A stretch of DNA of 64,000 nucleotides from Mycobacterium basiliense. GTDB lineage: Bacteria; Actinomycetota; Actinomycetes; Mycobacteriales; Mycobacteriaceae. Shown here one piece after another: positions 5,441 through 23,959 of the stretch. Numbering within the stretch: position 1 is the first letter of the stretch; each line of letters begins with the position of its first letter. The notes under the pieces were generated by a model. The model saw nothing but the letters and a program-made list of their open reading frames with translations. It made no database searches and was not told where the DNA came from. The position numbers and the translations under genes were made by a program. The DNA lies in the NCBI RefSeq assembly GCF_900292015.1, contig NZ_LR130759.1, forward strand, positions 1,488,001 through 1,552,000. Reading direction: 5' to 3'.

Positions 5441-6787
5441 TCAAGCCTTTCCGTCCAACGTGAGCATGGAGTCTCGGGGATCGAACGGGCAACCGCCCTG
5501 TTCGATGTGTGCGAGATATTCGTCGCGGAAGTGCTGGATCGAGGACATCACCGGGCTGGCGGCGCCATCGCCCAACGCGCAGAACGACTTTCCTAAGATC
5601 GAATCCGAGATGTCCTGCAGTTTGTCGATATCCTCGCGGGTGCCTTTGCCGGTTTCCAGCCGCTCGTAGATCTTGTCCAGCCAGAACGTACCCTCCCGGC
5701 ACGGGGTGCACTTACCGCATGATTCGTGCTTGTAGAACTCGGTCCAACGGCGCACCGCACGCACCACGCACGTGGTCTCATCGAAGATTTCCAGCGCTTT
5801 GGTGCCTAGCATGGAGCCGACGCCACCCACACCTTCGTAGTCCAAGGGCACGTCGAGGTGCTCGTCGGTGAGTAGGGGCGTCGATGAGCCACCGGGCGTC
5901 CAAAATTTCAGCCGGTGCCCGGCGCGCACTCCGCCGGCGTAGGCGAGCAATTCGCGTAGCGTGATACCCAGCGGCGCCTCGTATTGTCCGGGGCGGGTTA
6001 CGTGCCCGGACAGCGAATACAACGTGAAGCCAGGTGATTTCTCGCTGCCCATCGACCGGAACCAGTCGATGCCGTTGAGAATGATCGAGGGGACACTGGC
6101 GATCGTTTCGACGTTGTTGATCACCGTCGGGCAGCCATACAGCCCCGCCACGGCGGGGAAGGGCGGACGTAGCCGCGGCTGGCCGCGTCGACCCTCCAGC
6201 GAATCGAGCAGCGCGGTCTCCTCACCGCAGATGTAGGCGCCGGCGCCGGCGTGTACCACCAGTTCGAGGTCGAAGCCCGAACCATTGATGTTGCGCCCCA
6301 GATAGCCGGCCGCGTAGGCCTCGGCCACTGCGTTCTGCAGGCGGCGCAACACCGGCAGCACCTCGCCGCGCACATAGATGAACGCGTGGCTGGCCCGAAT
6401 CGCGTACGCCGCGATGATGACGCCTTCGACCAACACATGCGGTGTCGCCAGCATGAGCGGAATGTCTTTGCAGGTACCGGGTTCGGACTCGTCGGCGTTG
6501 ACCACCAGGTAATGCGGTTTTGCGGCCGGGCCGGTGTCGCCTTGCGGGATGAACGACCACTTGGTGCCGGTGGAAAAGCCGGCGCCCCCGCGGCCACGCA
6601 GCCCGGAGTCCTTGACCGTGCCGATCACGTCGTCGGGTGCCATGGCCAGGGCTTTCTGCATGGCCTGGTAGCCGCGATAGCGATCGTGGCGCAGGTAGGT
6701 TGCCAGCGACCATGACTCCGGGTCGTCCCAGTAGCGACTGATCACCGGGGTCAGCGGGGTCGCTTGTGCGCTGAAAGTGCTAGTCAT
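5441..6787 (-). CDS. nuoF: NADH-quinone oxidoreductase subunit F (NADH/FMN-binding)
   Basis: NuoF binds NADH and FMN and holds cluster N3; it is the electron entry point of complex I. The FMN/NADH loop ([16 protein letters not shown]), [12 protein letters not shown] and the N3 ligands in [16 protein letters not shown] are present. The product is about 448 residues, close to the tuberculosis protein (445). The ATG at 6785-6787 is chosen; its A is shared with the nuoE stop (TGATG). A GTG one codon upstream is also possible. Confidence 0.95.
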
Positions 6788-7548
6788 CACTGGCCTTCCG
6801 CTGCCGGAGGCGTCGGCGCTTGCATGTCGTTCTGCTGCGCCACTCGCAACCCGGCCAAAGTGGCCGCACCGGCCCCGCCCTGGCCCTCATCGGGACGTTC
6901 GTCGCGCAAGCCGGCCAATACGCGTGACGTTTCGCGGAACTTGCACAGTGGCGCGCCGCGGGTGGGCGCCAACGGTTCACCCGAGCGCAGGGATTCGACC
7001 AGTGCGCGGGCAGACTCGGTGGTCTGGTTGTCGAAGAACTCCCAGTTGACCATCACCACGGGTGCGTAGTCGCACGCGGCATTGCATTCGATGTGTTGCA
7101 AGGTGATGGCACCGTCGGAGGTGGTCTCGTCGTTGCCGATGCCGAGATGCTCTTTGAGTGAGTCGAATATCGCGTCACCGCCCATCACCGCGCATAGCGT
7201 GTTGGTGCACACACCGACCAGATATTCGCCGGTCGGGCCGCGACGGTACATGGTGTAGAAGCTGGCCACCGCCGAAACCTCGGCCCCGGTCAGTCCCAAC
7301 TGGTCGGCGCAGAACTGCAAACCTGCCGGTGTCAGGTAGGAGTCCTCACCTTGGACCAAGTGCAGCAACGGCAACAGCGCCGAGCGCTGGTTGGGGTAGC
7401 GGCCGATGATTTCCTTGGCGTCGACCTCCAGCCGGGCCACAACCTCAGGCGGGTAGGACTGGGGGGCACCGTCAACCAGAAATTGATTCGGCTCCTCCGG
7501 CGGTGGTCCGAGACGGAGGAACACCGGCTCACCTTGCGGACCGGTCAT
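6787..7548 (-). CDS. nuoE: NADH-quinone oxidoreductase subunit E
   Basis: NuoE is the 24-kDa-type thioredoxin-fold subunit with 2Fe-2S cluster N1a. The four ligands are in [11 protein letters not shown] (first pair) and [17 protein letters not shown] (second pair). The protein is 253 residues, with a mycobacterial C-terminal tail rich in Ala, Gly and Pro after about residue 200. Start and stop overlap nuoD (4 bp) and nuoF, consistent with a single transcript. Confidence 0.95.
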
Positions 7549-8843
7549 CGATCCACACCTCCCATGACAGGGTCGATACTGGCCACCGCGGTGATCAAGT
7601 CGGCGACCATGCCACCTTCACACATCGCGGCCACCGACTGCAGGTTGGTGAATGAGGGGTCGCGGTAGTGCACTCGATAGGGACGCGTGCCACCGTCACT
7701 GACCATGTGCACGCCCAGCTCACCGCGGGGCGATTCGACCGCGACGTAAACCTGCCCGGCCGGGACGCGGATGCCCTCGGTCACCAACTTGAAGTGGTGA
7801 ATCAGGGCTTCCATCGAAGATCCCATGATCTTGGCGATGTGCTCGGGTGAGTTGCCCATGCCGTCTGGGCCAACCTTCAGGTCTGCCGGCCACGCGAGTT
7901 TGCGGTCTTCGATCATGGTGGGGCCGGGGCGCAACTTGTCCAGGCACTGCTCGACGATCTTGATCGATTCCCACATCTCCTTGACGCGAATAATGTAGCG
8001 CCCGTAGGCATCACAAGTGTCATCGGTGATGACGTCGAACTCGTAGTCCTGGTATCCGCAATAGGGTTCGCTCTTGCGCAGGTCATGGGGCAGCCCGGTG
8101 GAACGCAGGATCGGACCGGTCATTCCCAGCGCCATACAGCCGGCCAAGTCCAGATAGCCGACGCCCTCGGTGCGCGCCTTCCAGATGGCGTTTTCGTTGA
8201 GCAGATCGCCCATTTCGCGCAGCGGCTGGCGGAGCTTCTTGAGGGCTTCGGCGATCTCGGTGGCCGCGTTGGGGGGTAGGTCCTGGGCCACGCCGCCCGG
8301 CCGGATGTAGGCGCTGTTCATCCGTAGACCGGTGATCGATTCGAACAAGCTCAAGATGATCTCGCGGGCGCGAAAGCCGACGAACATCGGGGTCATGGCG
8401 CCGAGTTCCATGCCGCCGGTGGCCAATGCCACCAGATGCGACGAGATCCGGTTGAGCTCCATCATCATCACCCGAATGACATTGACTCGTTCCGGGATCT
8501 CGTCGGTGATGCCGAGTAGTTTCTCGACGCCGAGGCAGTAGGCGGTTTCGTTGAAGAACGGTGACAGGTAATCCATTCGGGTGACGAACGTGACGCCCTG
8601 AGCCCAGTACCGGTATTCGAGGTTTTTCTCGATTCCGGTGTGTAGGTAGCCGATTCCGCACCGGACTTCGGTGACCGTTTCGCCTTCGATCTCGAGGATC
8701 AGCCGCAAGACTCCGTGGGTGGACGGGTGCTGGGGCCCCATGTTGACGACGATGCGCTCGCCGGGATCCGCGCTGCGGGCGGCCTCGACGATCTCGTTCC
8801 AGTCCTGCCCGCCGGCGACCAGGACGGTCTCGGTTTCGGTCAT
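7545..8843 (-). CDS. nuoD: NADH-quinone oxidoreductase subunit D
   Basis: NuoD (49-kDa subunit) forms the quinone-reduction site with NuoB. The 432-residue sequence shows [15 protein letters not shown] near the N-terminus, whose histidine contacts the quinone head group in the family, as well as [14 protein letters not shown], the RPGGVAQDL region and the C-terminal [11 protein letters not shown] that characterises the group. It overlaps nuoE by 4 bp and follows nuoC by 37 bp. Confidence 0.96.
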
Positions 8844-8880
8844 CTTCTCTCGTGTTTCGTCGTCATCTCGTTGTTGGTCA

Positions 8881-9597
8881 CTAGTTGTAGCCCCTCCGCT
8901 CGTCGGGTGGAGGTATGTTCGCGCCCTTGTATTCGACTGGGATGCCGCCGAGCGGATAGTCCTTGCGTTGCGGATGCCCCTGCCAGTCGTCAGGCATCTC
9001 GATACGGGTCAGCGCTGGATGCCCGTCGAAGATGATGCCGAAGAAGTCGTACGTCTCACGTTCGTGCCAGTCGTTGGTCGGGTAGACGGCAAACATCGAC
9101 GGAATGTGTGGATCGCTGTCGGGGACAGACACTTCCAACCGCAAGCGACGGTTGTGGGTGATCGATTGCAACGGATATACAGCGTGCAGTTCCCTGCCGG
9201 TTTCGTGCGGGTAGTGCACCCCGCTGACTCCCAAACACAATTCGAAGCGCAACTCTGGCTCGTCACGAAGCAGCTGGGCGACCTGCGTCAGCGACTCGCG
9301 GCGCACATGCAGAGTCAGCTCGTTGCGGTAGACCACGACCTTCTCGATGGCGTCCTCGAATTCGACACCGCCACGTTTGAGTGCTTCGGCCAGGTGGTCG
9401 GCGATGTCGTCGAAGTAGAAGCCGTAGGGTCGCGGGCTACTGCCCGGCAGCACCACCTCCCGGACCAGTCGCCCGTATCCGGAGGTGTCGCCGGTGCCTT
9501 TGACACCGAACATGCCACGGCGAACATCGACCACTTCTTCGGTGGCGGAGCCGTTGTCGCCGATTGCTTCTCGAGGGTCCTGCCCTGGCGAGCTCAT
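8881..9597 (-). CDS. nuoC: NADH-quinone oxidoreductase subunit C
   Basis: NuoC (30-kDa subunit) is a cofactor-free peripheral-arm protein. The signature block [20 protein letters not shown] and the following [16 protein letters not shown] are clear. The product is 238 residues; residues 1-60 form a poorly conserved leader. It overlaps nuoB by 4 bp. Confidence 0.95.
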
Positions 9598-10148
9598 CGC
9601 AGCAATCCACGCATCTCGACCGTGGGCCTGGCCAGCAGGGCCGCTTCCTCGGCTTCGGCGATGGCACGCTCCCGGTTGACGCCCAGCGGCATTTCCTGAA
9701 TCTTCTCGTGCAGCTTGAGTATTGCGTGCAGCAGCATTTCTGGACGCGGCGGACAGCCGGGCAGATAGATGTCGACCGGAACCACGTGGTCAACGCCCTG
9801 CACGATGGCGTAGTTGTTGAACATCCCGCCGGATGACGCGCACACACCCATGGCCAGAACCCATTTCGGCTCGGCCATCTGGTCGTAGATCTGTCGTAGC
9901 ACCGGGGCCATTTTCTGGCTGACCCGCCCGGCCACGATCATCAGATCGGCTTGCCGTGGGGTGGCGGAGAAACGTTCCATTCCGAAACGGGCGATGTCGA
10001 ACCTCGGTCCGGCGGTCGCCATCATCTCGATTGCACAACATGCCAACCCGAAGGTCGCCGGCCACAGTGAGTTTTTGCGGACATACCCCGCTACCTTCTC
10101 GACTGTCGACAGCAGGATCCCGCCGGGTAGCTGTTCTTCCAGTCCCAC
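9594..10148 (-). CDS. nuoB: NADH-quinone oxidoreductase subunit B
   Basis: NuoB holds terminal cluster N2, which reduces the quinone. Its ligands are the tandem cysteines in LACCAIEMM, the cysteine of [10 protein letters not shown] and the one in LPGCPPRPE. The protein is 184 residues, the usual length. It follows nuoA by only 8 bp and overlaps nuoC. Confidence 0.96.
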
Positions 10149-10156
10149 GTCTTACC

Positions 10157-10546
10157 TCAATCCCACGTCAGGCCACCGCGGCGCCACACGTATGCGTAGG
10201 CCACGAAAACCGTCAGCATGAATATCACCATCTCGACGAGCGCGAACGTCCCCAGTGAATCGAAGCTGACCGCCCATGGGTAGAGGAACACGATTTCGAT
10301 GTCGAAGACGATAAACAACATTGCGGTCAGGTAATACTTCACCGGGAACCGCTGGCCGCTGGTCGTTCCGGGGCCCATGGCTCCGGAACTGGCCCCGGTG
10401 TCGGTCGGTTCGATCCCACATTCGTAGGCGGCGCGTTTCGACCGATTGAAGCGTGACGGCCCGACCAGGCTGGCGATCACGACGGAGACCACAGCGAAGG
10501 CGGCGGCAAGCGTCGCCAGCACCAGGATGGGTATGTAGGCGTTCAC
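10157..10546 (-). CDS. nuoA: NADH-quinone oxidoreductase subunit A
   Basis: This is the first gene of the nuo operon and encodes the ND3-like subunit. The three expected membrane segments (about residues 4-26, 66-88 and 95-115) are visible, as is the conserved YECGIEP loop and FDIEIVFLYPWA. I place the start at the GTG at 10544-10546 (V-N-A-Y-I-P), giving 129 residues, nearly the M. tuberculosis length; a GGAG lies just upstream. Longer in-frame readings run into the repeat-bearing intergenic region and are unlikely. Confidence 0.93.
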   Translation of the reverse strand: MNAYIPILVLATLAAAFAVVSVVIASLVGPSRFNRSKRAAYECGIEPTDTGASSGAMGPGTTSGQRFPVKYYLTAMLFIVFDIEIVFLYPWAVSFDSLGTFALVEMVIFMLTVFVAYAYVWRRGGLTWD

Positions 10547-11028
10547 GTTGCTCCATGATCCGTCGTACGGGCCGCCAGGGCTGCGGCCGGGCGGTGACCA
10601 GGCTGCTGTGACCGACCGGGCTTGTGGACCGTCACAGTGACCTTCAACATAGTCGCGCGGGGGCCGAAGCACATGCCCGGGGGTCAACCTGTGGAACATC
10701 CGAAACGAGCCCGTCGGTGTCCGATGTCGGCGCCCGATGTCGGTCCCCGATGTCGGATATGCCGACTTGGCCGCCGACGACGCACGTGGCGCGGTCATTG
10801 CCGCCGGTTCCCCCGGTGGCTTCAAGTTGTGAATGCACTCGCAGCGGCGGGGTCATCGAGCGGACTCGATGATCTGCACCACGATCAGCGCGACGGTGGG
10901 ATTCTATGAATATCTGGCTAACCAGCGGATACGTAGATCGATTATTGTTACGCTATGCCGCCTTCGGTATTGGCCGGACTTCCTGAAAGTCAGCGCCAAC
11001 CGGTCGGTGATCTGGGAGGATTAGAGCT
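10547..11028. promoter_or_regulatory. Divergent intergenic region of the nuo operon and PPE52
   Basis: These 482 bases separate nuoA (minus) from PPE52 (plus) and must hold both promoters. No convincing protein is encoded. The part near PPE52 (10900-10960) is AT-richer than its surroundings and is the likeliest place for the PPE52 promoter; GGGAGGA at about 11013-11019 serves as its ribosome site. The three 13-bp repeats at 10721-10759 lie in the middle. Confidence 0.6.
10721..10759. repeat. Three tandem 13-bp repeats
   Basis: CCGATGTCGG occurs at 10721, 10734 and 10747, exactly 13 bp apart, with variable 3-bp spacers. Each core is a near-palindrome (CCGA, two bases, TCGG). The position between nuoA and PPE52 suggests an operator array or a microsatellite-like duplication; the sequence alone cannot decide between these. 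Confidence 0.75.
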
Positions 11029-12327
11029 GTGAGCTTTTTTACGCTGCCACCGGAGATTAATTCCCTGCGAATGTTCATCGGTGCGGGAACAGCGCCGATG
11101 CTGGAGGCGGCCGCGGCTTGGCAGGGGCTGGCCGAAGAGTTGGGCACCGCGGCGCAATCATTTGCCTCGGTGACGGCCGGGCTGGCCGGGCAGGCATGGC
11201 AGGGTTCGGCCGCAATGGCGATGGCCAACGCGGCGGCACCCTACGCCGGGTGGTTGGCTGCGGCTGCGGCTCAGTCCCTCGGGGCAGCGGGCAATGCCCG
11301 AGCCGTGGCCAGCATGTTTGAGGCGGCCCAGGCGGCGACGGTGCTTCCGGCGTCAATATCGGCCAACCGAAACGCCTTCGTCCAGCTGGTGATGTCGAAT
11401 CTGTTCGGTCAGAACGCGCCGGCGATAGCCGCTGCCGAATCTATCTATGAAGAGATGTGGGCCGCTGACGTGGCCGCCATGTCCGGCTACTACTCCGGGG
11501 TGTCGGCGGTGGCCGCGCAGGTGGTGCCGTGGCAGAACGTGCTGAAAAGTCTCCCGGGTCTGGGTGGCGGTGCGCTCGGCGCGGGCGGTGGTGGCGCCAC
11601 CGGCGGAGCCTATGTGGGCGGCCAAAACGGCGCCGGCTCGTCGGCCGGCAGCGGCACCGCGACCGCCGGGGCAGGCGGCGACGCCAGCGCCGGAACGGGC
11701 GGGGTTGGGGGCGGCGGCGGCGCTGTCGGCACTGGCGGTTACGCGGGTGCCGCCAGCGGTGGAAACACCGGAGCTGCATACCCGCAGGGCGATGCGACCT
11801 CCGCCGCGGCATATTCCGGGAATTCCGGTATCGGCGCTGGCGGCCATGTCGCTGCCAGCCCTGGTGTTGGGGGCCCCGCGATGGGGTTTGTGCCCGTTCC
11901 GATGATGGCTGGGGCCGGCGGCAGCAGTGCGAGTTCCGCCGGTGCTGAGCACGCTGCGCCGCCCAGCGCAAAGTCGACCGCCGAAACGGGCGCCGCTTCC
12001 GAGACGGCGCCCGAAGTGCCGGTCCCGAGGGCTGCGGAAGCCGAAAAGCCGGCCCCACAAATGAAGGTGTTGCCAACGGCGGCTCCCGAAATCGCGGCGA
12101 CGGCGGCTCCGGACGCGAAACCACAGGCCGCGCGGGCGGGTGGTGCGGGAATTCCCGCGTCGAAACTGCGGCCGTCGCGAACGTCCGCAGCCACTGCCGA
12201 GGATCGGCAAGTTGCCGATGCTGAAGCGGCCGAGGAGATGGCGGTGCCGCTACGGCCGGATGCGGTGGCGGGAGAATTGCGGCCCAGGGCAACCCAAGAA
12301 CCGAAAGTCCAAGTGCGGGGTGGCTGA
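11029..12327 (+). CDS. PPE52: PPE family protein, PPE52 ortholog
   Basis: The 432-residue protein begins [16 protein letters not shown] and matches remembered M. tuberculosis PPE52 (Rv3144c) through the roughly 175-residue PPE domain, including the WQG turn and the [18 protein letters not shown] segment. PPE proteins pair with PE proteins and leave the cell through ESX (type VII) systems. After the domain comes a Gly/Ala-rich stretch (about 185-290) and a Pro/Ala/Glu-rich tail. The start is a GTG with GGAGG upstream. No PE partner is adjacent. Its position next to nuoA is the same as in H37Rv. Confidence 0.9.
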
Positions 12328-14731: not shown

Positions 14732-15271
14732 TCAGCCGGCCCGGGCCGGCGCGAAGACTAGTTCGGCGGACGCGGTGGCCGTCGCCGCCATCACACCGAA
14801 TTTGTTCCAATCCAGACCAAACTGGGCTCGGTCGATGTCGGCCTGGCCCGATATCCGCACCGAGCCGTCGCCGAACTCGCTGATCGTGACCGGCAGTGGC
14901 ACCGGGTCGGCGATGCCTTTGATAGTGAAGCTGGCGCGCAGGTCGGCGTTTTTGCCCTTGGTCGGGTGCAGCGTGGTGACCACCACCCGGATCTGGGGGA
15001 AATGCTCGACGTCGAAAAAGTCGGCCGAGCGCAGGTGCTTGTCGCGGCGGCCGATCCCGGTCTGCAGGGAGGCGGCCTCGATTTCCAGGTGTCCGGAGAC
15101 CGCGCCGTCGCTAGCCAGCTCGCCGTAGCCGCTGAACTGGGTGAACTCGCCCTTGACGGTTAGCAAGCCCCACATGTTCTTGATCTTGAAGGTGACGGTC
15201 GATTGTTCTGGAACGAGGTGCCACGCTCCTTGCGCGTCGGGATCGCTTAGCAATGCTTCCAGGGTCGTCAT
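14732..15271 (-). CDS. YceI family lipid-binding-like protein
   Basis: The 179-residue sequence has the YceI pattern: a start of the type WHLVPEQSTVTFKIKN, the KGEFTQFSGYGE strand, DKHLRSADFFDVEHFPQI and a C-terminal DRAQFGLDWN. YceI proteins form a lipocalin-like beta barrel that can bind polyisoprenoid chains. No signal peptide is visible, so it is probably cytoplasmic. It follows the NTF2-like gene by 34 bp on the same strand and may be the tail of the catabolic operon. Confidence 0.85.
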   Translation of the reverse strand: MTTLEALLSDPDAQGAWHLVPEQSTVTFKIKNMWGLLTVKGEFTQFSGYGELASDGAVSGHLEIEAASLQTGIGRRDKHLRSADFFDVEHFPQIRVVVTTLHPTKGKNADLRASFTIKGIADPVPLPVTISEFGDGSVRISGQADIDRAQFGLDWNKFGVMAATATASAELVFAPARAG

Positions 15272-15305: not shown

Positions 15306-15713
15306 CTATCGAGCTCGGTCGGGCTCATCCAGCAGGGGCGCGAGTTCGGCGGGGTCGAAGTACTCGTCGATGCGGTTGATCAGACCATCCATGTCCAGCT
15401 TGATCACGATGCACACCCGCACGGCGATCGACTGGCCGGCTTGGCCGGCCGCATGTAGCACATGCTGCTGGACAAAGCCCCTGTCGAATACCTGACGGTC
15501 CAGGATGCGGTAGCGACGTTCGGTGGTTGCCGCGACGAACCACTCGATCACCCGCAGTGCGCGATCCTTGTCGTTGTCCCGGTGGGCGCCGACACGCCAC
15601 ACCGCAATGTTGGCGCTCCACATTCGATTGACCGTGGCCAGGTCGCTGTTTTCGATGGCAGTGAACAGTCGATCGGCCACCTCGACGATGGACTCGGCGG
15701 GATAAGAGGGCAT
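15306..15713 (-). CDS. NTF2-like (SnoaL-type) protein
   Basis: This 135-residue protein has the alpha-plus-beta cone pattern of NTF2-like proteins: an N-terminal helix pair (AESIVEVADRLFTAIENSD), then strands with AVWRVGAH and VCIVIKLDMDGLINRIDEYFD, ending like many limonene-1,2-epoxide-hydrolase or SnoaL relatives. Function is not deducible; such proteins bind small hydrophobic ligands and some are isomerases or hydrolases. It lies 11 bp after the DUF6285 gene, so it is probably co-transcribed with the kinase/dehydrogenase genes. Confidence 0.75.
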   Translation of the reverse strand: MPSYPAESIVEVADRLFTAIENSDLATVNRMWSANIAVWRVGAHRDNDKDRALRVIEWFVAATTERRYRILDRQVFDRGFVQQHVLHAAGQAGQSIAVRVCIVIKLDMDGLINRIDEYFDPAELAPLLDEPDRAR

Positions 15714-15724
15714 AGGCCCGGCTC

Positions 15725-16063
15725 CTATTCGCTGTCGTATCCGGGGTGGGCGACCGCCAACCGATCTCGTACCAGTGTGCGCAGGCAGGCAACCACCTCG
15801 GCGGCGCGGCCGTCCAGGTGCCCAGCCCGGATAGCGGCGGCCAGGCGGGCCTCGTCGGCGAAGCCCAGGCTGTTCACCGCCGCGCGGACGTCGGAATCAC
15901 CGGGGCAGAGCAGTTCACGCTGCACGATGCGCAACGCGTTGGCGGCCACCCTGGCATGGAAATTGACCTGCCCGGTGGTTGTCGCCCGGACATCGCCCTC
16001 CAGGAACTCGGCAACGGCAGCGACGAGTTCGGCCGCGGTCGGACGGCCGTAGCGGGCGGTCAT
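15725..16063 (-). CDS. DUF6285 protein, LvaB-like partner of the APH kinase
   Basis: The 112-residue protein (MTARYGRPTAAELVAAVAEF, then FHARVAANALRIVQREL) fits DUF6285, small helical proteins found beside APH-like kinases and acyl-CoA dehydrogenases. In the Pseudomonas putida levulinate pathway the small protein LvaB is required by kinase LvaA; this gene has matching size and context. The ATG at 16061-16063 overlaps the kinase stop (TAATG), so translation is coupled and a stable complex is likely. A longer reading exists inside the kinase gene and is rejected. Its biochemical role here is inference. Confidence 0.8.
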   Translation of the reverse strand: MTARYGRPTAAELVAAVAEFLEGDVRATTTGQVNFHARVAANALRIVQRELLCPGDSDVRAAVNSLGFADEARLAAAIRAGHLDGRAAEVVACLRTLVRDRLAVAHPGYDSE

Positions 16064-17028
16064 TATCTGGCTCCTTCGAGTAGGTCCAGCAGGTCCCATT
16101 CGTTCTCGCAGACCCGGCGGCCGATCGTGGCCAACTCCACCGATCTGGCCTGCCCGCTCAAATGTCGCTCCGCCTGGTATCGGCAGATGACGCCCCAACG
16201 TAGTGTGGCCAGCACCAGCCACCAGCGAAAGGCGGCTCGGTCGACGGCGGTCCCGCTGGCATCCTCATAGGTCCGCAGGAAATCTTCGATGCCGCCCAGG
16301 CCGCCGGCCGCGTGGCTGGCCGGAGCGCCAAACCGCCAGGCGCGCACGCAGAACCAGGCCAGGTCCTCGTATCCCGCACCGACATGCACCAGCTCCCAAT
16401 CCAAAACGGCGGCAAGCCCGGATCCGTCGACGATGAGATTTCCCATCCGGTAGTCGCCGTGCACCAGAACCGCCGCCGGCTCGGCCGGCCGATGGGCGGC
16501 CAGCCAGCGGAAAGCCCATTCGAAGGTGGCGGTGGTGTCACCCATGGCGTCGAGTCGCTCGCGCCACTGTGCCACCGGGTCTTCGCGGGCCAAGCCGGCA
16601 TCGGCCGAGTCGGCTCGGTGGATGGCGGCCAGCGCCTGCGCGCACTGGCGCAGCAGGCGCCGCCGGCCCGCTTCGTCGAGCTGGCGCTGGATGCGCCGGA
16701 CAATGGTCTCGCCTTCGATCGCGTCGCAGACCAGGAACGGGTTGCCAAGTGCTGCAGCGGAATCGCTGGCGATCAGGATGCGGGGCACGGGCGCACCGGC
16801 AGCCGCGGCGGCGGCCTGGACGCGTGCCTCGAGTTCCATTCCGGCGTGTACATCGTCTGGTGGCCCGGTGCGCAGAATGAGCGACCTGCGTCCGCGGTCG
16901 GTGCTGGCGTCGAATGCCCAGGTGGTCCTGCTGGCTCCGCCGGTAAGCGTGCGCAGGTTGTCGACGGTCACCTCGGCGCCCAGGACCGGGCGCAACACGG
17001 CGGTCAAATTGTCGAGCAGTTGGGTCAT
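16063..17028 (-). CDS. APH/choline-kinase-like phosphotransferase (LvaA/ACAD10-11 kinase type)
   Basis: This 321-residue protein has the aminoglycoside-phosphotransferase fold. The nucleotide loop is LTGGASRTTWAFD, the catalytic loop is VHGDYRMGNLIVD and the metal-binding motif is LDWELVHVG. It resembles kinases paired with acyl-CoA dehydrogenases, such as LvaA and the N-terminal half of vertebrate ACAD10/11, which phosphorylate 4-hydroxyacyl-CoAs; drug resistance is less likely given the neighbours. The ATG at 17026-17028 overlaps the dehydrogenase stop by 4 bp (ATGA), and MTQLLDNL is a natural N-terminus. The substrate is not shown by sequence. Confidence 0.87.
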   Translation of the reverse strand: MTQLLDNLTAVLRPVLGAEVTVDNLRTLTGGASRTTWAFDASTDRGRRSLILRTGPPDDVHAGMELEARVQAAAAAAGAPVPRILIASDSAAALGNPFLVCDAIEGETIVRRIQRQLDEAGRRRLLRQCAQALAAIHRADSADAGLAREDPVAQWRERLDAMGDTTATFEWAFRWLAAHRPAEPAAVLVHGDYRMGNLIVDGSGLAAVLDWELVHVGAGYEDLAWFCVRAWRFGAPASHAAGGLGGIEDFLRTYEDASGTAVDRAAFRWWLVLATLRWGVICRYQAERHLSGQARSVELATIGRRVCENEWDLLDLLEGAR

Positions 17029-18263
17029 TTCTTGCCAAACTTGAATAGCCGCTGGGCAACCCGGCGAATCTGTATTTCTTCGGCGCCCTCGGTGATCCGG
17101 TAGCGACGGTGATGGCGATAGATGTGCTCGAACGGTTCGTGACGGCTGTAACCGACACCGCCAAACACTTGCATGGCCCGGTCGGCTGCTTCGCACACCA
17201 GTCGATTGGCGCGGTAGTTGGCCATCGACACCTTGTCGGAAACCTCCATATGGTGGTTTCGGTCCAAATGCCAGGCGGCGTAGTACACCAGTAGCCGCAC
17301 CATCTGCGCCTCGGTCTGCAGTTCGACAAGGGGCCACTGGACGGCCTGGTTCACCGACAGCGGCTTGCCGAACACCGTGCGGTCGCCCGCGTAGGCCACG
17401 GCCCGGTCAATGCAGTATTGGGCGGCACCCAGACTACTGGCCGCCTGGCGAATCCTGTTCTCGTGCAAGAAGGTCTGCCCGACCTCAAGGCCCCGGTCCA
17501 CTTCGCCAAGCACCGCGCCGTCGGGGACTCGGACGTCATTGAGCTCCACCTCGCCGTGGTCGGTGGGCATGTTCAGCGTCCACCAGTAGTACGGCACGGT
17601 GAAGCCGGGGGCATCGGTCGGCACCAGAAACGCGGTGATGCCTCGAGCCTGGCCGGGTTCACCCGAGGTTCGAGCGAACACCAGATCGTGGGTGGCGCGG
17701 TGCACACCGGTGTTGAACCGCTTGGCGCCGTTGATAATCCAACTGTCACCGGTTCGTTCGGCGTGGGTCTGCATCCAGGTGGCATCCGACCCGTGCCGTG
17801 GCTCGGTCAGTCCGAACGCCATCGACCGTTCTCCAGTGATGAGCGCCTCGGTCCATTCCTTTTTTTGCGCCTCGGTGCCGAACCGGTCCATCATGATGAC
17901 CTGCGGAAAGTTGCCGACGATCGAGGATTCGTTCTGCAGATCGTTATGCAGGCCGAGTCCCTTGTGCGCCAGGTGTTCGCGGATGACGGCCATATCGAGG
18001 TTGGTCCCGTCGCGGCCGCCGAACTGAGCGGGCAGCCCGTAGCGTAGCCAACCCGCTTTGTCGGCACGCCTTCGCATCTCACCCAGCAGGTCTTCCCATT
18101 CCCGGCGGGGAATACCGTCGTTGTCCCAGTCGGTGCGGGCGTGCTCCCGACGATGGTCGAAATAGTGAATGTGTTCGTGTTCCAGCGGCTTGATCTCGGC
18201 CTCGATGAACGCGTCCATCTCGGCGAGCAGTCCTGGCAGGTGTTCTGGCAAAGTGAAATCCAC
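17025..18263 (-). CDS. Acyl-CoA dehydrogenase (ACAD10/11- or LvaC-like)
   Basis: The 412-residue flavoprotein has the N-terminal helical domain, the middle beta domain (MAFGLTEPRHGSDATWM, WIINGAKRFNTGVHRATHD) and the C-terminal helical domain ending YRITEGAEEIQIRRVAQRLF. I place the start at the GTG at 18261-18263, which has AAGGAG six bases upstream; upstream in-frame sequence overlaps the TetR gene. In the LvaC/ACAD11 branch the enzyme acts on 4-phosphoacyl-CoA, eliminating phosphate on the way to the 3-hydroxyacyl-CoA. That assignment rests on the flanking kinase and DUF6285 genes. Confidence 0.88.
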   Translation of the reverse strand: MDFTLPEHLPGLLAEMDAFIEAEIKPLEHEHIHYFDHRREHARTDWDNDGIPRREWEDLLGEMRRRADKAGWLRYGLPAQFGGRDGTNLDMAVIREHLAHKGLGLHNDLQNESSIVGNFPQVIMMDRFGTEAQKKEWTEALITGERSMAFGLTEPRHGSDATWMQTHAERTGDSWIINGAKRFNTGVHRATHDLVFARTSGEPGQARGITAFLVPTDAPGFTVPYYWWTLNMPTDHGEVELNDVRVPDGAVLGEVDRGLEVGQTFLHENRIRQAASSLGAAQYCIDRAVAYAGDRTVFGKPLSVNQAVQWPLVELQTEAQMVRLLVYYAAWHLDRNHHMEVSDKVSMANYRANRLVCEAADRAMQVFGGVGYSRHEPFEHIYRHHRRYRITEGAEEIQIRRVAQRLFKFGKK

Positions 18264-18285: not shown

Positions 18286-18909
18286 CTACGCGCCGTACAA
18301 GGTCTTTTTCCAGACCGTTGACAGGGTCCTGATGGCATCCTCGTCGGTGACATCCATTCCCAGCCCGGACGGACCCACAAAGACGGTCGTAAAGTTCTCG
18401 AACAACAGCGCGATGGCCGCTGCGGTGTGGTCCGGGTTGAGTTCGGTTCCGAAGCCCTGGCCCTGCGCGTGGCGAACCGAGGCGGCGACGATTTCCATGC
18501 CGAAGCGCCGGAATTGGTTCTGGACGGCGGCGAAGCGCTGCTGGGTGGCCGCGAGCTGGGCAACCGCGATCATGATGCCGATGTTTTGTTTGAAGATATT
18601 CCAGTAGCCGGTGACCACCGAGGTGAAAAACGCGTCGTCGTCCGGAGATTCCGGCAGCTGCAGGCTCAGCCCGGACGGCGCCACTACGTCGTGCAAGAAC
18701 GACTGTGCCAGCGCGGCCAACAGGTCTTCCTTGTCGGTGAAGTACCGATAAAACACCGCCGATGACTTTCCGGCGGCGGAGGTGATGTCGGCCAGGGTGG
18801 TCCCGTGGAAGCCGCGCTCGGCGAACAGCTTCCGCGCGGCTTGCTCGATGGCCTGCCGAGTCTGGCGGCCTTTGGAACTGAGTTCTCGTGCGGCTTCCGG
18901 AGCGGGCAT
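18286..18909 (-). CDS. TetR/AcrR family transcriptional regulator
   Basis: The 207-residue protein has a TetR helix-turn-helix at about residues 14-60 (RQTRQAIEQAARKLFAERGF, then TLADITSAAGKSSAVFYRYF). The ligand-binding C-terminal part is unremarkable. It sits inside the catabolic operon: it starts at the stop of the HMG-CoA-lyase-like gene and ends 22 bp before the acyl-CoA dehydrogenase. It is therefore the likely acyl-CoA- or substrate-responsive repressor of these genes. I found no obvious operator palindrome next to it. Confidence 0.9.
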   Translation of the reverse strand: MPAPEAARELSSKGRQTRQAIEQAARKLFAERGFHGTTLADITSAAGKSSAVFYRYFTDKEDLLAALAQSFLHDVVAPSGLSLQLPESPDDDAFFTSVVTGYWNIFKQNIGIMIAVAQLAATQQRFAAVQNQFRRFGMEIVAASVRHAQGQGFGTELNPDHTAAAIALLFENFTTVFVGPSGLGMDVTDEDAIRTLSTVWKKTLYGA

Positions 18910-19805
18910 CAGATTCGGATCCGGTCTCCTGCGCGTAGCAAAGCGCCCGGCAGATCATGGCCGACAATCGCTTTCGCAACCTCGGCGGCTGCGATGGCGG
19001 CGGGCAAGTCGACATCGACATGGTAGCCGCTGTCGGTAAGCAGATACACCAGATCCTCGGTGGCGATGTTGCCGGTGGCGCCCGGGGCGAAGGGGCAGCC
19101 GCCGAGCCCGCCGACCGAGGCGTCCAGTCGGGTAACACCGGAGCGCACGGCCGCATACGCGCTGGCCAGCCCCGCGCCACGGGTGTTGTGAAAGTGTCCA
19201 CCCAGCCTAATGTCACCGATCACCGGACTGAGCTGTGCGACGAGGGAACTGACGCGGCCCGGGGTTGCGGTGCCGATGGTGTCGGCAATCGAGAAGCGGT
19301 GCGCACCCTGCTCCCGGGCGGCGGCAGCGATCTCAACGACTCGCTGCGGCGGGGTTGGCCCGTCGAACGGACAATCCCACGCGGTGGCCACGATGACCTC
19401 GACGGTGACATCGCTGTCGTGGGCGATGGCGAGGATCTCACCGATCTGACGGGTGGCCTCCGCGGTGGTACGCCCGACATTGGCCATGCTGAATGAATCG
19501 CTGGCCGATACCACATATTCGATGGCGCGCAGCCCCGCGGCGACCGCTCGTCGGGCGCCGTTGGGACTGGCCACCAACGCGGAGAATTCGATGTCCGGGT
19601 AGTTATCCAGTTCCGCGGCAAGCTCGGCGGCGTCGGCCATCGACGGCACCTTCGACGGCGACACGAATGCGGTTGCCTCGACCTCGAGAACTCCGGTGGC
19701 GGCCACCGCGGTCAGCAATTCCAGCTTGGCGGACAGCGGGATTGGGCGCTCGATCTGCAGGCCGTCGCGCAACGCTACCTCGCGGATGTCGACATGATTG
19801 GTCAC
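18909..19805 (-). CDS. HMG-CoA lyase-like / DRE-TIM metallolyase
   Basis: The 298-residue TIM-barrel protein carries the hydroxymethylglutaryl-CoA lyase hallmarks: DIREVALRDGLQIE (metal aspartate and catalytic arginine), GGHFHNTRGAG (two metal histidines) and the glycine loop GGLGGCPFAPGATGN with the catalytic cysteine. Such enzymes cleave 3-hydroxy-3-methyl-acyl-CoAs into acetyl-CoA (or another acyl-CoA) and a keto product. It overlaps the CaiB gene by 4 bp upstream and touches the TetR gene downstream. The physiological substrate is not known. Confidence 0.9.
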   Translation of the reverse strand: MTNHVDIREVALRDGLQIERPIPLSAKLELLTAVAATGVLEVEATAFVSPSKVPSMADAAELAAELDNYPDIEFSALVASPNGARRAVAAGLRAIEYVVSASDSFSMANVGRTTAEATRQIGEILAIAHDSDVTVEVIVATAWDCPFDGPTPPQRVVEIAAAAREQGAHRFSIADTIGTATPGRVSSLVAQLSPVIGDIRLGGHFHNTRGAGLASAYAAVRSGVTRLDASVGGLGGCPFAPGATGNIATEDLVYLLTDSGYHVDVDLPAAIAAAEVAKAIVGHDLPGALLRAGDRIRI

Positions 19806-21007: not shown

Positions 21008-21681
21008 CCGGCGCTCGCGAAGTCATGGCGGATCAGCCAGTCGGTGACAATCTCGACGGCCTGACCCAGCTTGTCGCGTTGGTCGGGGCCCGCGTAATAG
21101 TGAGTAGCACCAGGTATTTCGTACATCTCCTTATCGGCGTGTCCGATGGCATCGAAGAGTCGTCGGGCATGGCTGGGTGTGCAGGCGTCATCGGCCAGAT
21201 TACCGATCACCAGCGCAGGAACAGCGAGGTCCTGCCCGCACGCCACGCCGTCGCCACGGGCGTCGTCGTAACTCCATTGCGACAACCAGCTGCGCAGCGT
21301 GCAGAACCGGGCCAACCCGACCGGGCTCATGTTCACCACGCGCGGATCACCCAGATAGCAGGTGCCCGGCGTGCGTTCGTTGGGGTCCACGCTCGGATCC
21401 AGCCAGCGTGGGTCGGCCATGGTGCCGTGTACGACGAAACAGAACTCATCCTGTGGGCGTCCCGCGCCCTGCAACTCGGCGAGCTTGTCTTTCACCCATG
21501 CGGTGATACGCCGGTTGCGGTCGATCTGCGCCTGCCGGTATCGGGTCAGGAACTGCGCGCTGTAGCGCGGTTGGTGTGCGACCGGGCGGCATCGGCGATC
21601 CACGCCCCGAACCGGTCCGCACCTGGGGATTTCGCTCCGACGCGGGCCGATGGCGGTAGCTGTCCTCTGAAACCATTCCAC
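21004..21681 (-). pseudogene. 5'-truncated alpha/beta-hydrolase
   Basis: The readable frame (225 residues) begins to look like protein only at about residue 38 (HQPRYSAQFLTRYRQAQIDR). From there it resembles the C-terminal half of a large mycobacterial alpha/beta-hydrolase, with the acidic residue in LVIGNLADDACTP and the catalytic-type histidine in PGATHYYAG. The nucleophile elbow and the N-terminal half are missing, and the first ~35 codons have low-complexity Arg/Pro content typical of noncoding frames. It still overlaps the CaiB gene by 4 bp, so it was probably the first gene of the operon. It could instead be a short functional relic. Confidence 0.6.
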
Positions 21682-21976: not shown

Positions 21977-23959
21977 GTGAACTTTGCGGTCCTGTCGCCA
22001 GAGGCGAATTCGGCTCGAATTCTTAGCGGTCCGGGACCGGGGCCGCTTCTGGCCGCGGCAGCGGCCTGGGATGGCATCGGAGATGAGTTGTCCTCGGCGG
22101 CCAACGCGTTCTCGTCGCTGACGTCGGAGCTCACCGGGGTGGCGTGGCAGGGCCCGTCGGCGTTGGCGATGGCCAATGTTGCCGCCTCGTATGTGGGGTG
22201 GCTGGGATCCGCGGCGTCCGGCGCGGCCGCGACCGCGCGTCAAGCCGCGACGTCGGCCGCAGTGTTCGAGGCCGCGCGCACGGCCACGGTTCCGCTGGAA
22301 ATGGTGGCGGCGAACCGGTCTGCGTTGATGTCGATGGTGGCGTCCAACATCTTTGGGCTCAACGCGCCGGCGATCGCGGCGATCGAGGCGCAGTACGAGC
22401 AGATGTGGGCACAGAATGTGGGCGCCATGTTTGGCTACCACGCCGGCGTCTCGGAGGCACTCTCGCAGCTCGCGCCATGGCAGGAAATGTTGTCGAGCGT
22501 GCCGCGGCAGGTGGCCGGGGCCCTGGAACGGACGTCGGCGGCCGCCGCGGCGGCGATCAGCCCCACCGCCGTGACAGCGGCGGATGCGGCGTTACCGGCG
22601 GCGGCAACCGACGTCACGTTGGTGATAGGTGGCAGCGGCTACCCGATACCTTCGCAAAGTTACGTCGAAAATGTCGTGAACAATTTCGTCACTCCCAATT
22701 TCCCCGCCTTTACTGTAAGCAACGCGATCTCCCTGTTTACCCCTGCCGAGTCGTATTGGATTACCGGTATTAAAACCATGACCGAGGACGCGTCGTGGGC
22801 GGAAGGCCTGACCATCCTGGACACCGCGATCAAGGAGCAATTGGCCGCCGGAAACAACGTTGTCGTTCAGGGCTACTCCCAGGGCGCTGGGATTGCATCG
22901 CTAGAAATGGAAAACCTCAAGGCGGCGGGTGTGTCGCCTAGCTCGGTAAGCTTTTCGTTGGTCGGTAATGCCATGAACCCCAACGGCGGCTTGTACGAGC
23001 GCTTCGCGGGTTTGGTTTCACCAAGTCTCGGCAAAACGTTTTGGGGCGCGACCCCGGATAATTACTATCCGACGGCGATGTACACCCTCGAATACGACGG
23101 TTTCGCCGACTTTCCCCAATACCCGCTCAATTTCGTGTCCGACCTCAACGCCATTATGGGCATCTACTACGTGCACACCCAGTATCCGACTCTCACCGCC
23201 GCGCAAGTCGCCACGGCTATCACCTTGCCGACGGAGGGATCAACGATGACCGACTACTACTTGATTCCGACCGAAAATCTGCCGCTGCTGGAGCCGTTGC
23301 GTGGGGTGCCGTTCATCGGGAACACCCTGGCGGACCTGGTCCAACCGAACCTGAAGGTGATCGTGAACCTGGGCTACGGCGACCCCAACTATGGCTATTC
23401 GACCGGACCGGCCAATGTGCCGACCCCGTTTGGTTTGTTCCCCGATGTCGACCCGGGCACGGTATTCGACGCGTTGGTTGCCGGCACTCAACAAGGCATT
23501 AACGATGCCGCCGCCGATATCAGTGCGTGGCAATTGCCGTCGGTGCCCGACATTTCGCTGTCGAGCATCTCGGACGCGCTTGGCTCAGATCCGTTGTCGG
23601 CACTTGGCGACGTGACCTTGCCGACGCTGTCGGTGTCATCGATCGAAAACGCCATTAAGGCGATCCAGACTGCGACAACCGACATCGCCAAAACCATCTC
23701 ATTCGATGCCAGTACGGCGTACGCAACCTTGCTACCCACCGCAGATGTCGTGAACGCGATGGTCACGACCCTCCCCGCCTACGATCTCAAGCTATTCCTG
23801 GACGGGATTCTGCAGGTGCTCAATGGTGATCCCGCCGGCTTCATTTATGCACTCGGCGCCCCGGTCGCCGCCAATGTGGCGCTGCTCACACTGCTGGCCG
23901 GCTTTAACCTTTATGCCTACTTGTATGCCTTCAACCAGATTGTGCCCGGCGTCATTTGA
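21977..23959 (+). CDS. PPE protein fused to a PE-PPE serine hydrolase domain
   Basis: The 660-residue protein opens with a PPE domain (MNFAVLSPEANSARIL, to about residue 180; the usual PPE motif reads SPE here). A PE-PPE alpha/beta hydrolase domain follows (about 210-440), with the nucleophile elbow VVQGYSQGAGIAS and candidate acid and base residues downstream. The C-terminal 150 residues are less conserved and end in a hydrophobic stretch (NVALLTLLAGFNLYAYLYAF). It is probably an ESX-5-type exported esterase or mycobacterial lipid-active enzyme. The start is a GTG. H37Rv has no equivalent at this position. There is no adjacent PE gene. Confidence 0.88.
   Translation: MNFAVLSPEANSARILSGPGPGPLLAAAAAWDGIGDELSSAANAFSSLTSELTGVAWQGPSALAMANVAASYVGWLGSAASGAAATARQAATSAAVFEAARTATVPLEMVAANRSALMSMVASNIFGLNAPAIAAIEAQYEQMWAQNVGAMFGYHAGVSEALSQLAPWQEMLSSVPRQVAGALERTSAAAAAAISPTAVTAADAALPAAATDVTLVIGGSGYPIPSQSYVENVVNNFVTPNFPAFTVSNAISLFTPAESYWITGIKTMTEDASWAEGLTILDTAIKEQLAAGNNVVVQGYSQGAGIASLEMENLKAAGVSPSSVSFSLVGNAMNPNGGLYERFAGLVSPSLGKTFWGATPDNYYPTAMYTLEYDGFADFPQYPLNFVSDLNAIMGIYYVHTQYPTLTAAQVATAITLPTEGSTMTDYYLIPTENLPLLEPLRGVPFIGNTLADLVQPNLKVIVNLGYGDPNYGYSTGPANVPTPFGLFPDVDPGTVFDALVAGTQQGINDAAADISAWQLPSVPDISLSSISDALGSDPLSALGDVTLPTLSVSSIENAIKAIQTATTDIAKTISFDASTAYATLLPTADVVNAMVTTLPAYDLKLFLDGILQVLNGDPAGFIYALGAPVAANVALLTLLAGFNLYAYLYAFNQIVPGVI

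Follow-up and report, generated by a model that had tools for sequence, protein, structure and literature searches.

Described Systems and the Trio in the Window

The phosphorylation of acyl-CoAs to expel a hydroxyl group has been tied to genes only recently, through the lva operon of Pseudomonas levulinate catabolism and through ACAD10/11. Here, these systems are compared with a trio of genes for an acyl-CoA dehydrogenase (ACAD), a kinase and a DUF6285 protein, found at positions 15725..18263 of a 64,000-nucleotide stretch of the Mycobacterium basiliense genome (NZ_LR130759.1, positions 1,488,001 to 1,552,000), referred to below as the window. In the lva system, LvaA is the 4-hydroxyvaleryl-CoA kinase and LvaB its small subunit. 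LvaB was recovered in a pulldown with LvaA, and growth on levulinate needs both genes, according to one paper (PMC6692424, citing Rand et al. 2017). For ACAD11, another study links R626, H634 and R637 to the way the enzyme deals with the 4-phospho group and identifies D753 as the base (PMC12440821). The available passages also describe the first three residues as absent from conventional ACADs and their Ala/Leu substitutions as the most disruptive to ACAD activity; the substitutions reported there do not include the residues found in the window (PMC12440821). LvaC itself is given as 62% and 56% identical to human ACAD10 and ACAD11 in the part of the literature that covers it (excerpts of PMC11342911).

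An initial annotation of the window had likened the trio to the LvaA-LvaB-LvaC module. That likeness holds for the kinase and the DUF6285 protein and fails for the dehydrogenase, which falls into a separate clade, here called E-type. Judged from the sequences, DUF6285-kinase systems are of at least two kinds, the window trio being the undescribed one. What is new is the different flavoenzyme that accompanies an Lva-type kinase pair; the pair type itself is already known. The comparison turns on the following features:

17025..18263, reverse strand: E-type ACAD, 412 residues; GTG start preceded by AAGGAG; Acyl-CoA_dh domains
16063..17028, reverse strand: APH-fold kinase assigned to the LvaA class, 321 residues; PF01636 at 124.9 bits
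16438..16464, reverse strand: kinase catalytic motif VHGDYRMGN, residues 189-197, which lines up with the catalytic segment in mouse ACAD11
15725..16063, reverse strand: DUF6285 gene assigned to the LvaB family, 112 residues; PF19802 at 83.9 bits (cut-off 28.1)
17436..17471, reverse strand: E-type active-site helix F265..S276, FLHENRIRQAAS; the LvaC/ACAD11 counterpart is R626 plus the HCMR motif
17088..17090, reverse strand: E392, the usual ACAD glutamate; the LvaC/ACAD11 counterpart is the catalytic Asp D753

As annotated, the three genes overlap: the ACAD stop and kinase start share ATGA, and the kinase stop and DUF6285 start share TAATG. The ratio of nonsynonymous to synonymous substitution rates (dN/dS) lies between 0.05 and 0.26 when six window genes are compared with four relatives, near the between-relative values and slightly higher for the DUF6285 and kinase genes. 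The genes are thus under purifying selection, as working genes and not chance open reading frames.

A Dehydrogenase Distinct From LvaC

The description of the dehydrogenase as ACAD10/11-like, and hence LvaC-like, did not withstand alignment. At the positions of R626, H634, R637 and D753, the window ACAD aligns with F265, Q273, S276 and E392, and QAAS stands in place of HCMR; its identity to LvaC is only 31%. R, H, R and D occupy the four sites in 10/10 LvaC-type proteins, whereas all four are replaced in every one of the 106 E-type proteins aligned (from the 80 named proteobacterial loci described below, 22 loci of the genus, loci L032, L066 and L068, and the window). F265, R272, Q273 and E392 are invariant among these 106, and position 276 is Ser in 104 and Gly in two. 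Arg272 is confined to the E-type proteins in this comparison, with 0/10 occurrences in LvaC-type proteins and 0/7 in other ACADs of the window genome.

The ACAD tree places the window protein in an E-type clade of 21 rows (100/100), apart from an LvaC-type clade of ten rows (100/99) that consists of bacterial proteins, ACAD10/11 themselves lying outside the sample. The two clades are joined (100/97) against the seven other ACADs of the genome, although the tree is small and long branches were flagged. Membership of the window ACAD in the LvaC/ACAD10/11 group was rejected on the four replaced residues and the separate clade. The likeness to LvaC and to the ACAD domains of ACAD10/ACAD11 thus comprises the fold family, an adjoining LvaA-class kinase and possibly a nearest-clade relationship; the difference lies in the missing R626, HxMR motif and catalytic Asp and in the presence of F265, R272, Q273, S276 and E392. 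A much closer relative is the ACAD beside a kinase-DUF6285 pair in Sulfitobacter (60-61% identity), and at least 120 ACADs named by fold alone are at least 76% identical to that protein.

LvaC-type ACADs do occur elsewhere in the window genome, where three were found (motifs HCMR, HAMR and HAMR); one of the three adjoins a pair of ACAD10-like kinases. This last arrangement, at 6366-11419 of locus L197 (near 5.39 Mb in the window's own genome), pairs the kinases with an HAMR-bearing ACAD and is likelier to be an ACAD10/11-like pair than the window trio is.

The Kinase and Its DUF6285 Partner

The APH-fold signatures HGDxxxxN and DWE are present in the kinase within the motifs VHGDYRMGN and LDWELVHVG, as the annotation had recorded, and the PF01636 match agrees with that fold. 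For comparison, the lva operon of the Pseudomonas aeruginosa plasmid p12939-PER (L034) was used, whose small gene is annotated as LvaB; a tblastn search of plasmids with the DUF6285 protein gave no match, and the kinase query then retrieved lva operons. Over most of its length, the window kinase shares 35% identity with LvaA of this plasmid (pairwise E=8e-53); its pairwise alignment with ACAD11 is poor around the CoA-contact residues R86 and R176 of ACAD11. In a tree of 35 kinases, the 29 rows from DUF6285 loci, LvaA and the window included, form one group (100/100), with six ACAD10-like kinases outside. One row of the group's source loci, L069, has a DUF6285 match below the cut-off, and antibiotic kinases are not among the rows of the tree. 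By tree position, the kinase is a member of the LvaA class, in line with the resemblance noted at the outset. PDB entry 3dxp carries the label "putative acyl-CoA dehydrogenase" but proves to be a kinase in the alignment; its label looks inherited from ACAD10/11.

The small protein had been assigned to DUF6285 and the LvaB family, and the plasmid-borne LvaB indeed scores 85.3 bits on PF19802, the same Pfam model that the window protein matches. By this family match, the 112-residue protein is an LvaB-family member, at 25% identity to LvaB. The window pair therefore resembles LvaA-LvaB in the clade of its kinase, in the Pfam family of its small protein and in its adjacent, overlapping genes; it differs in the divergence of both proteins and in its surroundings, where, in contrast to L034, no LvaD-, LvaE-, LvaF-, LvaG- or LvaR-like gene was found among the scanned window neighbours, a set short of every open reading frame. 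The absence of LvaD and LvaE had already been pointed out.

The kinase and DUF6285 genes are tightly coupled. Of 27 DUF6285 places listed, 24 had loci, each with the kinase either next to DUF6285 or fused to it. Natural fusions, with the kinase first, occur in 15 of the 80 loci from Proteobacteria; three more are actinobacterial, including the mycobacterial locus L046. In the mycobacterial example (6242-7618), kinase and DUF6285 are encoded in a single open frame with a linker between them. Such fusions fit a complex without proving it.

In plasmids of Thermus and Stutzerimonas, the gene immediately after kinase-DUF6285 belongs to the histidine phosphatase family (L033 7312-7965; L035 8352-9113). 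The Stutzerimonas lva cluster of L035 has both DUF6285 (7996-8355) and this phosphatase; a similar cluster of P. citronellolis is described as having LvaA without lvaB (PMC6692424), which may merit a re-check.

Co-occurrence With the E-Type Dehydrogenase

The initial annotation had proposed that conservation of the kinase-DUF6285 adjacency be checked across mycobacteria. Within the genus, DUF6285 turned up in 232 of the 248 genomes sampled, and all 22 loci read, chosen among DUF6285-positive genomes, hold the kinase, DUF6285 protein, E-type ACAD (82-92% identical), hydroxymethylglutaryl-CoA (HMG-CoA) lyase and CoA-transferase together. Among the 16 genomes without a DUF6285 match, eight carry a different E-type ACAD (65-66% identity) and eight have none at E<=1e-90. 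Four of the former were read (L189-L192) and contain a second trio type, in the order diverged DUF6285, kinase, E-type ACAD; the diverged DUF6285 protein scores 27-30 bits in a local model and is missed by the Pfam one.

Named genomes were scanned, starting with the Sulfitobacter protein, and gave at least 583 matches, the best 80 of which are the proteobacterial loci considered here. Among these 80, DUF6285 is present in 45, a kinase in 44 and both in 43. The 43 strong kinase matches lie mostly on the same strand within 2 kb (36), with five on the opposite strand within 2 kb and two farther away. Twenty of the 35 loci with no DUF6285 close by were followed further; of the 19 genomes examined, 18 have DUF6285 elsewhere. 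In a sample of 77 Alphaproteobacteria, with E-type defined there by identity alone (at least 60% to the Caulobacter protein), 15 genomes have an E-type ACAD and 20 have DUF6285. Every one of the 15 is also DUF6285-positive (G414 through a weak match), compared with 5/62 of the genomes lacking an E-type ACAD (Fisher p=4e-12, relatedness ignored). Removing the genome on which the sample was centred (G395, itself an E-type genome) leaves 14/14 (p=2e-11, relatedness again ignored).

The search for LvaC-type genes covered 27 chosen genomes. The five Alphaproteobacteria with DUF6285 and no E-type ACAD all have an ACAD with an LvaC-type score (at least 435 bits) about 1.2 kb from DUF6285. LvaC-type genes are also common without DUF6285, being present in 10 of 15 DUF6285-less Alphaproteobacteria (larger genomes, picked from 57), whereas E-type genes occur in 0/57 of the DUF6285-less group. 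Outside Proteobacteria, the association of E-type genes with DUF6285 is looser: of 13 DUF6285-positive Actinomycetota from beyond the genus, six have an E-type ACAD, and the other seven have LvaC-type ACADs somewhere.

The trio members stay linked across four gene orders. A chance neighbourhood was rejected on the basis of conservation in the genus and the co-occurrence of DUF6285 with E-type genes. Neighbourhood and co-occurrence together show the LvaA-class kinase and LvaB-family subunit to be genetically bound to the E-type clade. The loci of Sulfitobacter, Variovorax, Marinobacter, Bradyrhizobium and sphingomonads share with the window an E-type ACAD, an LvaA-class kinase and DUF6285, sometimes fused. 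Around them, enoyl-CoA hydratases, CoA ligases, thiolases and short-chain dehydrogenases/reductases recur in place of the HMG-CoA lyase and CoA-transferase of the window. We know of no described function for these loci.

Operon Context and the Missing Upstream Genes

The window genome, a single 5.6-Mb contig, yielded one DUF6285 copy. Around the trio lie the following genes:

18286..18909, reverse strand: TetR-family regulator within the operon, PF00440; present in 21/22 loci of the genus
18909..19805, reverse strand: HMG-CoA-lyase-like enzyme, 298 residues; NCBIfam NF004283 at 274 bits (cut-off 246), PF00682
19802..21007, reverse strand: class III CoA-transferase, 401 residues; PF02515 at 408.8 bits
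21004..21681, reverse strand: C-terminal remnant of an alpha/beta hydrolase; homology at 21010-21576, residues 202-390 of 391; 86% identity to L043 by tblastn
21977..23959, forward strand: PPE gene (PE-PPE domain), PF00823/PF08237; occupies the place of the relatives' hydrolase remainder and dioxygenase gene
15306..15713, reverse strand: SnoaL-like gene, 11 nucleotides downstream of the DUF6285 gene; PF12680 at 27.2 bits (cut-off 27)
14732..15271, reverse strand: YceI-like gene, downstream; PF04264

The regulator, lyase-like and CoA-transferase genes lie upstream of the trio, each coupled by a stop/start overlap except for a gap of 22 nucleotides between TetR and ACAD. These couplings and the family matches bear out the operon partners that had been listed in the initial annotation. 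The SnoaL-like gene is found downstream in 14/22 loci of the genus, and we infer its co-transcription with the trio from the spacing alone. At the family level, the two upstream enzymes fit the pairing of HMG-CoA lyase with succinate-HMG CoA-transferase, both in their family models and in their nearest PDB chains, which for the CoA-transferase include succinate-hydroxymethylglutarate CoA-transferase. Lyase-like genes near kinase-DUF6285 or E-type genes are also seen in a few Proteobacteria (L111, L123, L137, L172 and the edge of L081).

In 20 of the 22 loci of the genus, two further full-length genes precede the CoA-transferase, encoding a homogentisate-dioxygenase-like protein and an alpha/beta hydrolase of 391 residues. 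The dioxygenase-like protein of L043 has 371 residues, and its best PDB match is the P. putida homogentisate dioxygenase HGO (3zds, E=7e-11), though it falls far under the HmgA equivalog cut-off. The loss of these two genes from the window operon had not been seen earlier. The window hydrolase retains residues 202-390 only (21576-21010), homology stops near 21575, and the PPE gene fills the gap; the dioxygenase gave no match in the window genome at E<=1e-5, with a query that matches 20/22 relatives at full length. The window genome seems to have lost the upstream supply genes and kept the lower part. Two other loci show similar losses, L053 being without both dioxygenase and hydrolase and L046 without most of the dioxygenase; both retain the trio, lyase and CoA-transferase. 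Together with dN/dS values near those of the relatives, this retention suggests that the lower pathway is useful without the upper genes.

A 59%-identical hydrolase is found beside an E-type ACAD in two Brevundimonas loci and a Bordetella metagenome-assembled genome (L081, L089 and L093). In L081 and L093, a 218-residue open reading frame precedes the hydrolase, and that of L081 has a glyoxalase/extradiol-dioxygenase domain, a hint that the hydrolase follows a ring-cleaving enzyme. The L081 cluster as a whole, with its extradiol-type VOC protein, flavin reductase, sulfatase and TonB receptor, is possibly an aromatic or sterol-like catabolic cluster.

Proposed Function and Alternatives

From these observations, the trio may represent a second type of DUF6285-kinase catabolic module in which an E-type ACAD takes the place of LvaC, a reading for which we consider the chances about evenly balanced. 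In such a pathway, the class III CoA-transferase would load a hydroxy acid with CoA, and the kinase-DUF6285 complex would phosphorylate a hydroxyl, most likely one past C3, of the hydroxyacyl-CoA. The E-type enzyme, with flavin adenine dinucleotide, E392 and the invariant Arg272/Gln273, would turn the phosphoacyl-CoA into an enoyl- or 3-hydroxyacyl-CoA, R272 and Q273 being candidate phosphate contacts. The HMG-CoA-lyase-like enzyme would then cleave the 3-hydroxyacyl-CoA into acetyl-CoA and a carbonyl compound, and the TetR regulator probably senses a pathway intermediate. The homogentisate-dioxygenase-like enzyme and the hydrolase would supply the substrate in most of the mycobacterial loci read. 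HMG-CoA lyase acts on a product branched at C3; the presence of a lyase here therefore suggests such a product, not further degradable by ordinary beta-oxidation. Because the ACAD is without the 4-phosphoacyl residues, a "4-hydroxy" substrate would be an extrapolation from the kinase's relatives alone. A more specific version is held tentatively, as somewhat short of an even chance: E-type ACADs would form a second class of phospho-acyl-CoA flavoenzymes with dedicated DUF6285-kinase partners, a Glu base and a relocated R272 would replace Asp, HCMR and Arg, the reaction or the phosphate-bearing carbon would differ, and the pathway would follow homogentisate-dioxygenase-like ring cleavage in most mycobacteria read.

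Several observations weigh against this function. Both kinase and DUF6285 are missing from the vicinity in 34 of the 80 E-type loci of Proteobacteria, and at least one of the two is missing in 37, some of them on short contigs; the genome of L083, which has an E-type ACAD, gave no DUF6285 match anywhere. Four of the six actinobacterial genomes with an E-type ACAD carry it apart from kinase-DUF6285. The operon partners are also not general, as tblastn in the 80 named loci found the lyase in four, the CoA-transferase in six (~30% identity) and the dioxygenase in none, and no enoyl-CoA hydratase gene was seen in the window operon. The P. citronellolis cluster suggests that some kinases may do without the small subunit. 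Finally, as the E-type enzyme lacks the phosphate-binding residues known so far, it could be a conventional dehydrogenase that acts alongside the kinase.

In one alternative, the reading of the initial annotation, the trio is a plain LvaABC equivalent whose ACAD carries out the LvaC/ACAD11 reaction, removal of phosphate from a 4-phosphoacyl-CoA with no electron acceptor, on another 4-hydroxy acid. The same adjacency with LvaA- and LvaB-family genes and the neighbouring position of the two ACAD clades in the small, long-branched tree would suit it, but the residues whose Ala/Leu replacement was most disruptive in the ACAD11 passages (PMC12440821) are replaced throughout the E-type proteins, D753 is replaced with them, and LvaC is distant; we regard this reading as unlikely. 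Comparable in plausibility, and similarly doubtful, is a division of labour: an LvaC-type ACAD from another locus would be the partner of kinase-DUF6285, and the E-type enzyme would contribute a separate, conventional alpha,beta-dehydrogenation step to the same pathway. The three LvaC-type ACADs elsewhere in the genome, the retention of the usual ACAD Glu and the E-type genes lying apart from kinase-DUF6285 all speak for it, yet it is the E-type genes that track DUF6285 more tightly, as the contrast of 0/57 with 10/15 among DUF6285-less Alphaproteobacteria illustrates.

Two further readings concern the operon as a whole and the kinase by itself. The missing dioxygenase and truncated hydrolase could mark the window operon as a decaying, non-functional remnant, which is very unlikely given the dN/dS of its six genes and the persistence of the lower genes in L053 and L046 after comparable losses. 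Least probable, to the point of being hardly tenable, is a kinase for an unrelated small molecule (antibiotic, choline or thiamine) whose place in the operon is fortuitous. Models for APH(3') and thiamine kinases do match the window kinase weakly, far under their cut-offs, and the PDB chain 9o56, whose name says no more than "Aminoglycoside phosphotransferase", gives an E value of 1.2e-9, on a par with that of ACAD11 (3e-9). Chains named APH(3'), however, reach only 6e-4 or weaker, against 35% identity to LvaA over most of the length and a conserved linkage to DUF6285. Identity as an antibiotic or thiamine kinase was accordingly judged unlikely from the scores.

Implications

The literature searched, mostly outside subscription journals, contained no mention of DUF6285 and no description of this gene set or operon; only the known lva and ACAD10-11 work and a paper on Burkholderia polyhydroxyalkanoates surfaced. 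If a distinct and widespread ACAD clade does serve the same kind of kinase, the chemistry would be broader than 4-hydroxy fatty acids, and the residue rules by which such enzymes are recognized would need rewriting. If true, the proposal would also provide a testable function for DUF6285, for many ACADs named by fold alone, and for an operon whose DUF6285 gene is present in most sampled genomes of the genus.

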